The translations under genes were made by a program, and so were the position numbers. A stretch of 46,876 nt of DNA from Deltaproteobacteria bacterium (GTDB lineage Bacteria > Desulfobacterota > Desulfobulbia > Desulfobulbales > VMSU01): positions 1 through 46,876 of the forward strand of contig JAJXUT010000008.1 of NCBI GenBank assembly GCA_021782655.1, in the 5' to 3' direction. Below, piece after piece: positions 40,620 to 45,906 of this stretch; the stretch's first letter is position 1; each line of letters opens with the position of its first letter. A model generated the notes under the pieces. The model searched no databases, was not told the origin of the DNA, and worked only from the letters and a program-made list of their open reading frames with translations.

Positions 40620-42425
40620 ATGACCGAAGACGCCGTCCCCGCCAGTCCTGTTCAGCTCGCCGAGCGGCTGGAGCTGTTTCTGGAAGGCCCGCGCAGCCTG
40701 GGGCCGCGTACCGAGCCTGACTTCATGGACATGGGGCAGGCCTTGCGGGAGGTGTACGACCAGGCCGGGGCCTTGAGTGGTGGGATGCGGGAGACGGTTG
40801 ACCTGCTGGGCGACCCGGAAAGCGGCGTCCTGAGCGTCCTGGGGCGGCTGGCCGAGGACAGTCTCGCCGAGCTGAAGGGCCGAGAGCAGGCGATCGGTGC
40901 CAACTTCGAGGCGGTCAAGGAGGTCTTTCTCCAGGTGGCCAACCTTAACTACCAGGCCGATTCCCTGGGGCAGATCGGCCTGTTTTTGCGGGTCATCGGG
41001 CTTAACTTCAACATCGAGTGCGCCCATATCCACGAGTCCGGGGGTGAGTTCGCGATGGTGGCCCAGGAGCTGTTGCAGCTCGCGGGCCGGATCTCTCAGG
41101 TGGCGGCGGAGATCGCCGAGGATTGCCTGCTGATGAGCGCCGACCAGGGCCAGACCCGGGGCGGCATCGTCCGGGAGATGAGGGCCTTGACCGCCCTGGC
41201 CCGGGAGACCGAGGGCACGGTGATCGCGGCGGTCAATAAGACCAGGGGGATCATGGAGCGGGCCCTGGCCGCCCTTTCCGAGGCCGAGGCCCACTCGCGG
41301 GCCATCGCCGGCCAGGTGGGCGAAATTGTGGTCCGCATCCAGCTCCACGACAGCATGAGCCAAAGGCTGGCCCACCTGGCGCAGGCCATGAGCACGGTGA
41401 TCGCCACCCTGCGTCAGACCGGCCAGGGGCCGGCGGAGGGGGAGCAGCTCAAGGCCCTGGCCGGGGCCTGGCGGATTGTGGTACTGCAAGGCGGCCAGCT
41501 CGACCGGATCATCGAGGAGATCGAGGAGGCGGGCGGCCAGAGCCTCGCCTCCTTTCAGGTGATCGACCAAGAAATTGCCGCCCTGAGCGAGGGGTTCGCC
41601 GTCCTGGGGGGCCGGGAGCAGGGGGAGGCCCTGTCCTTCCTGCATCAGTCGCTGGCCGGGCTTGGCGACACCATGGGCCAGGCGGCAGCCATCATCGCCA
41701 CCTTGAAGGCCAGCACCGGCCAGGTGGGCGGCATGGTGGGCCGGCTTAACCGGCACATGCGGCAGATCGAGGATGTCGGCTTTGAGATTCATCTCAAGGC
41801 CTTAAACGCCATCATCAAGGCGGCGGGGCTGTTTGGGGATTGCTCCCGCATCCTGGATGTGCTGGCCCTGGAGACCAAGGAGTTGGCCGACCGGGCCGGG
41901 GCCTTCGTGGCCAGGGCCAGCCAGATTCATCAGGTGATGGGCGGGGCGATTGGCCGCTTGCGCAAGGATGACGACGGCGACTTGGCCCTGCAGACGCATC
42001 AGGGGCGGCTGACGGCGGCGGTTGACGAGATCGCCGGGCGGCTGGCTAAGTTCCGTCGGGATACCGACCGGTGCGCCGGGGATTCCCAGGCCCTGCGCCA
42101 GACGATCGGCCAGGTTAGCGACCGCCTGCGCCGGTTTCTGCCGGGGCTGGTCGAGGAACTGGCCGGCCAGCGGCGGCAGTTAGAGGCGTTTGCCGAGGAG
42201 ATGGCGGTCTGGGGCCGGCAGTTGAGTGAGGCGGAGCTAAACGAGGTGGCCATCGGCCTGATGCAGATCTACACCACTGACCAGGAGCGGGAGTTGCACG
42301 CCGCCTTCCTGGGGATAAGCGAGGCCAAGGCCCCGGAAGGCGGGAAGTCCGAGGCGGACGAGGCGCTGTTCTTCGATCCCCCGGCGGAGCAGGAGGAGTT
42401 GGGCGACAACGTCGAGTTGTTCTGA
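40620..42425 (+). CDS. Soluble receptor-like chemotaxis protein with two MCP-tip-like hairpins and a CheZ-like motif
   Basis: The 601-residue, almost wholly helical protein has no membrane segment. Two regions resemble the conserved hairpin tip of chemoreceptors (ALNAAVEAARAGE..GRGFAVVA): residues about 127-160 (GLNFNIECAHIHESGGEFAM, then VAQELLQLA) and about 393-426 (ALNAIIKAAGLFGDCSRILD, then ETKELADRA). Both keep the pattern but lack the Arg/Glu consensus that binds CheA/CheW. Between them lies QLHDSMSQRL (241-250), with the D-x-x-x-Q spacing of the CheZ phosphatase motif. The protein ends in an acidic tail with terminal DNVELF, vaguely like the CheY-binding tail of CheZ. It heads the operon with STAS, cheY, cheA and cheW genes. 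ATG 40620 is preferred to the track TTG at 40587. Confidence 0.65.
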   Translation: MTEDAVPASPVQLAERLELFLEGPRSLGPRTEPDFMDMGQALREVYDQAGALSGGMRETVDLLGDPESGVLSVLGRLAEDSLAELKGREQAIGANFEAVKEVFLQVANLNYQADSLGQIGLFLRVIGLNFNIECAHIHESGGEFAMVAQELLQLAGRISQVAAEIAEDCLLMSADQGQTRGGIVREMRALTALARETEGTVIAAVNKTRGIMERALAALSEAEAHSRAIAGQVGEIVVRIQLHDSMSQRLAHLAQAMSTVIATLRQTGQGPAEGEQLKALAGAWRIVVLQGGQLDRIIEEIEEAGGQSLASFQVIDQEIAALSEGFAVLGGREQGEALSFLHQSLAGLGDTMGQAAAIIATLKASTGQVGGMVGRLNRHMRQIEDVGFEIHLKALNAIIKAAGLFGDCSRILDVLALETKELADRAGAFVARASQIHQVMGGAIGRLRKDDDGDLALQTHQGRLTAAVDEIAGRLAKFRRDTDRCAGDSQALRQTIGQVSDRLRRFLPGLVEELAGQRRQLEAFAEEMAVWGRQLSEAELNEVAIGLMQIYTTDQERELHAAFLGISEAKAPEGGKSEADEALFFDPPAEQEELGDNVELF

Positions 42426-42504: not shown

Positions 42505-42852
42505 ATGGAATGGACGCTTGAGCATGGGGGGCCGGAGTCGGCCCGGTTGAAACTTGGCGGGGCCTTGACCCTGGAGTTTGCCGTCGAGTTGCGGGAGGTG
42601 CTGAGGCAGGCCATCAACACCGTGCCTGACTTGGTGATCGAGCTGGACCGCGGCGCCGAGGCGGATCTCTCCTGCCTGCAACTCTTCTGCGCCGCCCACC
42701 GGGCGGCCTTTTCTGCGGGCCGCAAACTCGCCCTCGATCCCCAGCGGCCGGAGTCGTTCCATCTCCTGGCCAACGCGGCGGGGCTGTGCCGCCGTCAGGG
42801 CTGCACCATCGACCCCAAGGTGCGTTGCATTTTGTCGGGAGGGGAGGCGTGA
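42505..42852 (+). CDS. STAS-domain protein of the chemotaxis operon
   Basis: The 115-residue protein looks like a stand-alone STAS domain (anti-sigma-factor-antagonist / MlaB type): RLKLGGALTLEFAVELREVL, a central strand LVIELDRG, then ADLSCLQLFCAAHRAAF, where a Ser at the usual phosphorylation position follows the Asp. In some deltaproteobacterial chemotaxis operons a STAS protein sits beside CheY and CheA. Its role is not known. AGGAGGGACGGAC lies before the ATG. The stop overlaps the cheY start (TGATG). Confidence 0.75.
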   Translation: MEWTLEHGGPESARLKLGGALTLEFAVELREVLRQAINTVPDLVIELDRGAEADLSCLQLFCAAHRAAFSAGRKLALDPQRPESFHLLANAAGLCRRQGCTIDPKVRCILSGGEA

Positions 42853-43217
42853 TGGCCAAGTGCATCCTGACGGTGGATGATTCGGCTAGCATCCGGCAGA
42901 TGGTGGGCTTCACCCTGAAGGCGGCGGGTTACGAGGTGATCGAGGCGGTGGACGGCGTCGACGCCCTGGCCAAGTTGAACGGGAGCAAGGTCGGGATGAT
43001 CATCACCGACCTCAACATGCCCAACATGAACGGCATCGAGCTGACCCGGGCCGTCCGGGCCGAGGCGGCCCACAAGTTCGTGCCCATTGTCCTGCTCACC
43101 ACCGAGAGCCAGGACGGCAAGAAGCAAGAGGGCCGGGCCGCCGGGGCCACCGGCTGGATCGTCAAGCCCTTCAAGCCCGAGCAGTTGCTGGCGGTGGTCA
43201 AGAAGCTGATCGGCTGA
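42852..43217 (+). CDS. cheY: Chemotaxis response regulator CheY
   Basis: A single-domain receiver of 121 residues with the acidic pair in LTVDDSASIRQ, phospho-acceptor Asp in IITDLNMPNMNG, Thr in VLLTTES and Lys in WIVKPF. It lacks any output domain and is encoded just before cheA, so it should carry the phosphate signal to the flagellar switch. Start ATG 42852 overlaps the STAS stop; the track start at 42786 is too early. Confidence 0.93.
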   Translation: MAKCILTVDDSASIRQMVGFTLKAAGYEVIEAVDGVDALAKLNGSKVGMIITDLNMPNMNGIELTRAVRAEAAHKFVPIVLLTTESQDGKKQEGRAAGATGWIVKPFKPEQLLAVVKKLIG

Positions 43218-43254: not shown

Positions 43255-45348
43255 ATGGATGATGCCCAAAACGTCTATCGCGAGGAGGCCCGGGAGCTGC
43301 TGGCCGAGCTTGAGACCTCGCTGCTGGAGCTGGAGGAGAACCCCGGCGACCGGGAGCTGATCGGCCGCATTTTCCGGGCCATGCACACCATCAAGGGCTC
43401 GGGGGCCATGTTCGGGTTCACCGATATCGCCGCCTTCACCCACGAGGTGGAGACCATCTACGACCTGGTGCGGGAGGGTAAGATGGCGGTCAGCGCCAAG
43501 CTGGTCAACCTGTCGCTTGCGGCCCGCGACCAGATCCGGGCCATGCTTGAGGCCGCCGACTCCGGGGTGCCGGCGGAGGCTACCGAATCGGCCCGGATCA
43601 TCAGCGAGCTCACGGCCTTGCGGCAGGAGTCGATCCCGGAGGCCGCCGCCCGCCCGGCCCCTGCCGTTTCTCCTCCCCCGGTGGCGGAGGGCGGCAGCGA
43701 GGCGGTGTATCGGATCCGTTTCAAGCCCAAGCTAGACCTGTTCCGTTCCGGCACCAACCCGCTCCTGCTGCTCGCCGAGCTGCAAGAGATGGGCGAGTGC
43801 ACGGTGATCGCCAACACCGAGCGGGTGCCCAATATCGAGGCCATCGACCCCGAGGGTTGCTTCATCTTCTGGGATGTCACCCTCACCACCGACCGGGGCC
43901 GGGAGGCGATCCGCGATGTCTTCATCTTTGTCGAGGATCTCTGCGAGCTGAGCATCGAGGTGGCCGCCAGTTGCGAGATGGCGGAGGACGAGGCCCACAA
44001 GAAACTGGGCGAGATCCTGATCGAACGCGGCGATCTCTCGCCCGAGACCTTAAGCGTCCAGCTCAAGAGCCAGAAGCGAATCGGCGAGGTCTTGGTCGAG
44101 CAGCAGATCGTCAGCCAGGACGCGGTGGACGCGGCCCTGGCCGAGCAGCGGCACGTCAAGGAGCTGTGCGGCAAGCGCCAGAAGGAGGCGCAGTCGGCAA
44201 GCATCCGGGTGGATGCCATCCGGCTGGACGGGCTGGTCAACCTGGTGGGCGAGCTGGTGACGGTGCAGGCCCGGCTCTCCCAGTACTCCCAGCAGAGCAG
44301 CGACCCTGAGCTGCACACCATCGCCGAGGAGGTGGAGCGGCTGACCGGGGAGCTGCGCGACAACACCATGGGGATCCGGATGATGCCCATCGGCGGCATT
44401 TTCTCCAAGTTCAGGCGTCTGGTGCGCGACCTCTCCCGCGACCTGGGCAAGGAGGTGGCCATGACCACCGCCGGCGAGGAGACCGAGCTCGACAAGACGG
44501 TGATCGAGAAGCTGAACGACCCCTTTGTCCACTTAATCCGCAACAGCATCGACCACGGCATCGAGCCGCCCGAGGCGCGGGCAGCCAAGGGCAAGCCCCG
44601 CCAGGGGGTGGTGCACCTCTCGGCGGCCCACTCCGGGGACTCGGTGCTCATTGAGATCAAGGACGACGGGGCGGGCTTGAATCGCGAGGCCCTGCGGCGC
44701 AAGGCGAGCGAGCGGGGCCTGCTCTCGGAGGGCGGCAATATCTCTGACTCGGAGCTCTACCAGATGATCTTTGCGCCCGGTTTTTCCACCGCCGCCTCGG
44801 TGACCAACGTCTCGGGCCGGGGGGTGGGGATGGATGTGGTAAAAAGGGGCATCGACGCCCTGCGGGGCTCCATCTCGCTGACCAGCGAGCCGGGGGCGGG
44901 CACTACCATCCGCATCCGCCTGCCCCTGACCTTGGCGATCATCGAATCACTGCTGGTCAAGATCGGCGAGGACGGTTTCGTGCTGCCGCTGGGCGCGGTT
45001 GAGGAGTGCATCGAGCTGAGCCGGAACGGGGCGGCTAACGGCCAGGCCCGAGACCTGATCGGCGTCCGCGGGCACCTGGTGCCCTACGTCTCGCTGCGGG
45101 AACGCTTCGGCATCGTAGGCGAGCCGCCGGCCATCGAGCAGATCGTCATTACTAGCGTCAACGGCCACAAGGTGGGGCTGGTGGTCGATCAGGTGGTCGG
45201 CCAGCACCAGACGGTGATCAAGACCCTGGGGCCGCTGCACCGGCAGGTGCGGGGCATCTCCGGGGCCACCATCCTGGGCGACGGCTCGGTGGCGCTGATC
45301 GTCGATATCGGGCAGATAATCGAGGATGCCAGCCTGGATTCGTTCTGA
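43255..45348 (+). CDS. cheA: Chemotaxis histidine kinase CheA with an unusual regulatory linker
   Basis: Domains in order: Hpt (about 1-105) with the phospho-His in FRAMHTIKGSGAM (His44); a Pro/Ala linker; an extra alpha/beta domain (about 150-238, FKPKLDLFRSGTNPLLLLAE) in place of a typical CheY-binding P2; two MshEN-like half-repeats (LGEILIERGDLSPETL, about 251-273, and IGEVLVEQQIVSQDAV, about 276-298); dimerisation helices; the ATPase domain with N-box HLIRNSIDHGIEPPEAR, KDDGAGLNREAL and GRGVGMDVV; and a C-terminal CheW-like P5 domain. It lies between cheY and cheW. The ribosome-binding site is weak. Confidence 0.95.
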   Translation: MDDAQNVYREEARELLAELETSLLELEENPGDRELIGRIFRAMHTIKGSGAMFGFTDIAAFTHEVETIYDLVREGKMAVSAKLVNLSLAARDQIRAMLEAADSGVPAEATESARIISELTALRQESIPEAAARPAPAVSPPPVAEGGSEAVYRIRFKPKLDLFRSGTNPLLLLAELQEMGECTVIANTERVPNIEAIDPEGCFIFWDVTLTTDRGREAIRDVFIFVEDLCELSIEVAASCEMAEDEAHKKLGEILIERGDLSPETLSVQLKSQKRIGEVLVEQQIVSQDAVDAALAEQRHVKELCGKRQKEAQSASIRVDAIRLDGLVNLVGELVTVQARLSQYSQQSSDPELHTIAEEVERLTGELRDNTMGIRMMPIGGIFSKFRRLVRDLSRDLGKEVAMTTAGEETELDKTVIEKLNDPFVHLIRNSIDHGIEPPEARAAKGKPRQGVVHLSAAHSGDSVLIEIKDDGAGLNREALRRKASERGLLSEGGNISDSELYQMIFAPGFSTAASVTNVSGRGVGMDVVKRGIDALRGSISLTSEPGAGTTIRIRLPLTLAIIESLLVKIGEDGFVLPLGAVEECIELSRNGAANGQARDLIGVRGHLVPYVSLRERFGIVGEPPAIEQIVITSVNGHKVGLVVDQVVGQHQTVIKTLGPLHRQVRGISGATILGDGSVALIVDIGQIIEDASLDSF

Positions 45349-45414: not shown

Positions 45415-45906
45415 ATGGGGGTGGAAGGGATTAATCAGACCGACCAGTACCTGACCTTCCGGCTGGGCGAGGAGGTGTTCGCCCTGGAGATAGGCAAGGT
45501 GCGGGAGGTGCTGGATTTCACCAACATCACTAAGGTGCCGCAGACCCCGCCCTTCATGCGGGGGGTGATCAACCTGCGGGGCAGCGTGGTGCCGGTGATG
45601 GACATGAATTTGAAGTTCGGGATGCCGGAGACGGCCAAGACGGTGAACACCTGCATCATCATCGCCGAGATCGTGGTGGAGGGCGAGACGACGGTGGTGG
45701 GGGCGCTGGCGGATTCGGTGCGCGAGGTGCTGGACCTGGAGCCCGGCCAGATCGAGCCGGCCCCCAAGATCGGCACCCGCCTGAACACCGACTTTATCAA
45801 GGGGATGGGCAAGACCGACGACACCTTCATCATCATCCTGGACATCGACCGGGTGTTCTCGGAGGAGGAGAAGGCCGCTATCCGCGCCGTCGAGTCTGGT
45901 GAGTAA
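45415..45906 (+). CDS. cheW: Chemotaxis coupling protein CheW
   Basis: CheW links CheA to receptors. The 163-residue SH3-like protein has YLTFRLGEEVFALEIGKVREVL at the N-terminus, PFMRGVINLRGSVVPVMDMN and the closing IIILDIDRVFS. AAGGAGGAAAAC is right before the ATG. It is followed after 87 bases by a transmembrane chemoreceptor gene. Confidence 0.95.
   Translation: MGVEGINQTDQYLTFRLGEEVFALEIGKVREVLDFTNITKVPQTPPFMRGVINLRGSVVPVMDMNLKFGMPETAKTVNTCIIIAEIVVEGETTVVGALADSVREVLDLEPGQIEPAPKIGTRLNTDFIKGMGKTDDTFIIILDIDRVFSEEEKAAIRAVESGE

Follow-up and report, generated by a model that had tools for sequence, protein, structure and literature searches.

A candidate CheY-P phosphatase built from a duplicated chemoreceptor hairpin in Desulfobacterota

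Background

The DxxxQ sequence is an established phosphatase motif in CheZ and in HisKA_3 kinases (PMC3510030), and CheZ further possesses a linker and a C-terminal helix that binds CheY (PMC7750401). When the chemotaxis genes of Geobacter were compared in 2008, cheZ was not among them, and the conclusion drawn was that a CheZ-independent mechanism must be at work (PMC2577667). CheT of Sinorhizobium meliloti, a DxxxQ CheZ-like phosphatase that was recognised late, is encoded in a che operon with cheS, cheY and cheA; it is CheZ-like in predicted structure, with no reported receptor hairpin duplication, and the CheS of that operon is a STAS protein that binds CheA (PMC12654446). Soluble single-chain double MCPs, such as the R. 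centenum protein, were also already known, without an assigned function and, as far as found, without a reported CheZ-like site.

The window analysed here (46,876 nucleotides of contig JAJXUT010000008.1, assembly GCA_021782655.1, from a deltaproteobacterium of the Desulfobulbales) encodes a protein that resembles the double MCPs in having two receptor signalling hairpins in one soluble chain. It resembles CheT, from which it is distinct, in its DxxxQ motif and its che operon. Judged from its sequence and those of its relatives, this double-hairpin protein, a duplicated chemoreceptor hairpin, is likely to act as a CheY-P phosphatase in the manner of CheZ. As far as found in a search largely of openly accessible literature, a CheZ-like site in an MCP-like protein appears to be unreported.

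Gene and operon

The open reading frame at 40620-42425 of the forward strand encodes 601 amino acids, and the coordinates, frame and numbering given in the initial annotation (601 residues, D244, Q248, C-terminus DNVELF) were all correct. Hydropathy over 19 residues peaks at 1.29, in keeping with the claim that the protein is soluble and has no membrane segment. A fliJ gene lies upstream (Pfam), and the same strand continues 3' with a STAS gene, cheY, cheA, cheW and a receptor gene that runs off the end of the window (Table 1). The STAS stop and the cheY start overlap (TGATG), and the other gaps from the double-hairpin gene through the receptor gene span 37 to 79 bases in the ORF table. That the gene heads this operon, as had been proposed, is supported by co-direction and by a gap of about 455 bases upstream; a sigma-70 promoter was looked for ahead of the gene and none was found. 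The STAS protein of the window matches CheS of S. meliloti (PMC12654446).

Table 1. Features of the double-hairpin gene and its downstream neighbours (positions in the window)
Feature	Position	Strand	Basis or remark
Single-chain double-hairpin receptor-like protein with CheZ-like site	40620..42425	+	601 aa
Hairpin copy 1, bears motif (about residues 10-266)	40647..41417	+	AlphaFold helices, hhalign
Receptor-like tip 1 (residues 123-154)	40986..41081	+	Family consensus LRMLGIxTKIESARLGExGxGFxxLA
CheZ-like motif Q241-L-H-D244-S-M-S-Q248-R-L-A-H252	41340..41375	+	Q241, D244, Q248 invariant (59 rows)
D244 codon; Q248 codon	41349-41351; 41361-41363	+	
Hairpin copy 2 (about residues 275-532)	41442..42215	+	AlphaFold helices, hhalign
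Conserved LQxxQ (residues 289-293)	41484..41498	+	Near base of ascending arm of hairpin 2, about level with motif
Receptor-like tip 2 (residues 388-420)	41781..41879	+	Family consensus ALNAxIKAAHxGxxGAALGVLAEAI
Conserved YTxxxERxxH motif (residues 551-560)	42270..42299	+	Alignment
Disordered acidic tail	42312..42422	+	pLDDT below 50 from residue 569
NVELF, conserved short motif at tail end	42408-42422	+	N597, F601 invariant
STAS-domain protein, CheS-like position	42505..42852	+	Pfam STAS_2, 38 bits
CheY, likely substrate	42852..43217	+	Pfam Response_reg; neighbour conserved in 55 of 58 loci
CheA kinase	43255..45348	+	Pfam Hpt, H-kinase_dim, HATPase_c, CheW
CheW	45415..45906	+	Pfam CheW, 131 bits

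Two receptor-like hairpins

Comparison of the two halves of the family alignment by hhalign (copy 1, columns 10-268; copy 2, columns 272-535) gave a probability of 98.7% and an E value of 1.5e-16 over 245 columns, with the receptor tips in register, and the proposal of a duplicated receptor hairpin was thereby borne out. Copy 2 has no DxxxQ at the position equivalent to the copy 1 motif. The AlphaFold model of the window protein (59 rows, mean pLDDT 83, pTM 0.62) shows helices at 70-136 and 141-240 and again at 332-402 and 407-449. Its turns, at 137-140 and 403-406, fall exactly at both tips. A second model, of the Trichlorobacter thiogenes homologue (L083), is all-helical, with long helices spanning both hairpins and no break at the tips by DSSP, so that the turns are seen in the first model only. 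The best meaningful Foldseek matches in the PDB were chemoreceptors (e.g., 8c5v, 2ch7, 3zx6, 3g67), and structure prediction, taken over the two models and these matches, shows the receptor-like hairpins. At a pTM of 0.62, the two hairpins may come together within the chain as a four-helix bundle, forming a receptor pseudo-dimer.

Pfam MCPsignal scores 27.5 bits against the window protein, below its cut-off of 34.6, and matches all 59 aligned relatives (E up to 0.01); with the AlphaFold turns and the homologous halves, this indicates that the two receptor-tip-like segments are real. The tips had been described as lacking the consensus charged residues. This holds for tip 2, where E is replaced by K400 and R by G403 and one residue is inserted, but not for tip 1, which keeps E133 (the position of E385 in Tsr) and, family-wide, mostly keeps R136 and E139.

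Conservation of D244 and Q248

The initial annotation had drawn attention to HDSMSQ for its D-x-x-x-Q spacing. DxxxQ occurs four times in the window protein (at 114, 244, 350 and 454), so the spacing by itself is at chance level and was rejected as stand-alone evidence; what does hold is that 244/248 is the sole conserved pair. D244 and Q248, the two residues for which conservation in orthologues was to be checked, do not vary in any of the 59 aligned relatives, whose identity goes as low as about 15%, and are among only 11 invariant columns (V237, Q241, D244, Q248, A394, A401, G406, A416, E556, N597, F601). One of the two patterns used in the scan for relatives contained the motif, a possible bias in this set; at least 33 of the 59 members do not fit that pattern, and further full-length members from a motif-independent survey of the phylum also keep D and Q. 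In 58 of the 59 sequences exactly 100 residues separate F144 from D244, and the distance from D244 to tip 2 varies between 141 and 164. A rigid helical arm carrying its site at a defined height would call for just such a constant spacing to the tip. Three members read QFQDITRQ at the motif, where CheZ reads DFQDLTGQ.

Relation to CheZ and to single-hairpin receptors

In its DxxxQ within a helical hairpin, its flanks ([SGA]xxF[HQ]D; AxxFQD in CheZ), its flexible linker, its C-terminal peptide ending in F and an adjacent cheY (as for CheZ in E. coli), the window protein is like CheZ (PF04344). It differs in length (601 residues against 214), in its receptor-type tips, in having two hairpins and one predicted active site per chain, and in a conserved NVELF tail in place of a C-terminal CheY-binding helix of the DDLLxSLGF type. 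The distance from hairpin turn to motif is also greater, at about 105 residues; that in CheZ is about 40 by our own estimate. No match above the curated Pfam CheZ cut-off was found for the window protein, and CheZ is absent from its Foldseek top 50, where receptors were found instead. Among the 59 members the Pfam CheZ model matches three (best 4e-4), and it crosses the motif in three survey loci.

Profile comparison with a CheZ reference alignment (E. coli CheZ and eight CheZ proteins from the phylum) gave a modest 50.7% for copy 1 (P 1.6e-4), placing D244 on D143 and Q248 on Q147 of E. coli CheZ, and 0.3% for copy 2. The copy 1 score of 35.2 was reached by none of 150 heptad-block shuffles (maximum 32.5) and is mostly motif-derived, dropping to 23.9 when the motif was masked.

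The strongest profile link to CheZ was supplied by a class of single-hairpin receptors. A DNA pattern for QF[HQ]DxxRQ occurred at 55 places in 197 genomes of the phylum, against 4 for a reversed control, and the real proteins among the loci read were either double-hairpin family members or single-hairpin receptors. In the single-hairpin receptors the tip lies 114-116 residues ahead of the motif and the C-terminus is a hydrophobic motif whose last residue is F (in one case F plus S); chance matches had neither such a tip nor such an ending. Ten were aligned (alignment A3: L102, L108, L119, L120, L136, L139-L143). They are mostly membrane-anchored and have in common a receptor tip of canonical sequence, the motif QFQDxxRQ or SQ, Y[TV]M and a terminal F. 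With the window protein they share a nearly equal distance from tip to motif, Y[TV]M..[EQ]R and a hydrophobic C-terminus whose last residue is F; they differ from it in their one hairpin, canonical tip and N-terminal hydrophobic segments. Their profile matches were 99.8% for copy 1, 99.4% for copy 2 and 90.6% for CheZ (P 1.3e-6, 117 columns); this last value fell to 38.9% with the 8-residue motif masked and to 1.2% with the motif onward removed, and the best of 100 shuffles reached 15.6%. Taken with the Pfam matches and the copy 1 result, these comparisons are read to mean that the motif arm and CheZ probably share an ancestor, as distinct from membership of the CheZ family. A paper describing this class was not found in a search largely of openly accessible literature. 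A broader proposal, held only tentatively, is that receptor-type hairpins carry CheY-P phosphatase sites, with a membrane class and a soluble offshoot that join arrays and dephosphorylate CheY, and that CheZ shares a receptor-like hairpin ancestor with them.

The acidic tail

The acidic tail ending in DNVELF was confirmed, and all 59 aligned members end in N[VIF][ED][LF]F. One member, from a record labelled Nitrospiraceae (L074:21-1601), ends in NVELFS, one residue beyond the usual terminal F. Longer tails repeat DVELW-like units, with eight copies including the last in Malonomonas (L050:7929-10082) and five in L052:6279-8327. Such short repeats along an acidic, disordered tail point to avid binding of a partner, in the manner of a multivalent short linear motif. 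Given the linker and CheY-binding helix of CheZ (PMC7750401), CheY would be the most likely partner by analogy. A reading of NVELF as a CheR/CheB pentapeptide was set aside, since the aromatic W at position 2 of that pentapeptide is missing: position 598 is V, I or once F, and never W.

Distribution and the neighbouring CheY

Scanning 84,980 species genomes turned up 58 loci. Most belong to Desulfobacterota (Geobacter, Geotalea, Trichlorobacter, Malonomonas, Fundidesulfovibrio and Desulfobacterales), and one record each carries the label Nitrospiraceae, Methylomirabilis, Bacteroidetes, Ignavibacteriales, Lentisphaerae or Spirochaetes; the last of these loci (L091) encodes a single-hairpin relative and not a full member. 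A relatives search found some match in 22 of 58 genomes, strong in seven besides the window's own. Within the phylum, about 22 of 197 genomes have a full-length member, including one split across contig ends, and plasmid searches returned no relatives. In 55 of the 58 loci a CheY 59-81% identical to that of the window lies 12-781 bases downstream, whereas the median identity for the remaining CheYs of these loci is 30%. Two of the loci without it (L034, L084) end soon after the gene, and L046 may be a true exception.

Genus-mates of the window's organism have members of unequal kind: 46% and 93% identical in G001:C78 (L003) and G003:C26 (L002), and a Geobacter-type member of 23% identity in G002:C50 (L007). 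This difference suggests replacement or horizontal transfer.

Proposed function and alternatives

Two receptor-like hairpins together with a conserved CheZ-type motif indicate that the protein is probably an enzyme that switches off CheY-P, and the candidate enzyme probably serves sulfate- and iron-reducing bacteria, many of them without a recognised CheZ. The NVELF motif would capture CheY-P in the way that CheZ does with its C-terminal helix; Q248 would position the attacking water at the CheY phospho-aspartate (D53 of the neighbouring CheY), and D244 would contact its conserved lysine, K105. Hydrolysis of CheY-P would be sped up and the signal would end. More speculatively, the receptor-like tips might bring the enzyme to CheA-CheW arrays, and the state of the array could then influence its activity.

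The gene could instead encode a non-catalytic protein that binds CheA and CheW, either a soluble single-chain chemoreceptor or an array scaffold, with D244 and Q248 serving in helix packing or partner binding. The MCPsignal matches throughout the family favor this, as does gene order: in alpha-proteobacterial che operons a receptor gene is followed by cheS-cheY-cheA, and it is the receptor gene's place that the double-hairpin gene occupies. However, the tip residues show degeneration, most of all in tip 2 and in the window protein, the window protein has neither a methylation consensus nor a sensor domain found by Pfam (the latter not required of soluble receptors), and a packing role does not predict an invariant polar D and Q in the CheZ register, which together make a purely structural role unlikely. 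An adaptor or sink for CheY-P, in which the tail and the D/Q site hold or localise CheY-P with no gain in hydrolysis, would be in accord with the linked, conserved CheY and with up to eight tail motifs in some members. A binder would tolerate changes of D to E or Q to N, but both catalytic residues are exactly kept and no such change occurs among the 59 members, so that this reading is considered improbable.

The letters HDSMSQ also resemble the H-box of HisKA_3 kinases, and H243-D244-x-x-x-Q248 might on that account act in histidine phosphotransfer, as a DHp-like element. HisKA_3 does share DxxxQ (PMC3510030). However, three members have Q in place of H243, as do all ten single-hairpin relatives in the alignment. 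Because these natural variants keep D and Q, the HisKA_3-like reading was rejected as largely refuted; neither an HATPase domain nor HisKA_3 was matched by Pfam in the window protein, and phosphotransfer of this kind is very improbable. Pfam likewise gave no match to a CheC/CheX domain (ExxN) there.

Situated next to cheY in Geobacteraceae and in other Desulfobacterota, the family offers a concrete candidate, open to testing, for filling part of the Geobacter CheZ gap. It also points to a possible function for the soluble single-chain receptor-like proteins, hitherto without one, and suggests that a single protein can be both receptor and phosphatase.

Other possible CheY-P phosphatases in the genome and phylum

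CheZ, CheC and CheX are absent from the window, as initially annotated, and no CheZ was found in the whole genome. The accompanying hint that the organism has no other CheY-P phosphatase fails genome-wide, for three CheX-like genes lie elsewhere (G000: C25, C34, C44; L147-L149), one beside ATP synthase genes and one adjoining a cheB-like gene. These genes outside the operon are possible extra CheY-P phosphatases, and the double-hairpin protein therefore need not be the only one. Across the 197 phylum genomes, CheZ scored above its cut-off in 8 of the 22 with a family member and in 41 of the 175 others. With CheZ and the family not mutually exclusive, and CheX in the organism's own genome, an argument from a missing phosphatase was rejected.

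Many CheZ-like proteins of Desulfobacterota are themselves unusual in size, at 500-690 residues, and about 1 kb separates the two halves of the CheZ profile in them (e.g., G011:C5, G013:C1, G068:C1, G133:C54, G156:C140, G199:C1, G212:C221; L105), which points to a large insertion that splits CheZ.
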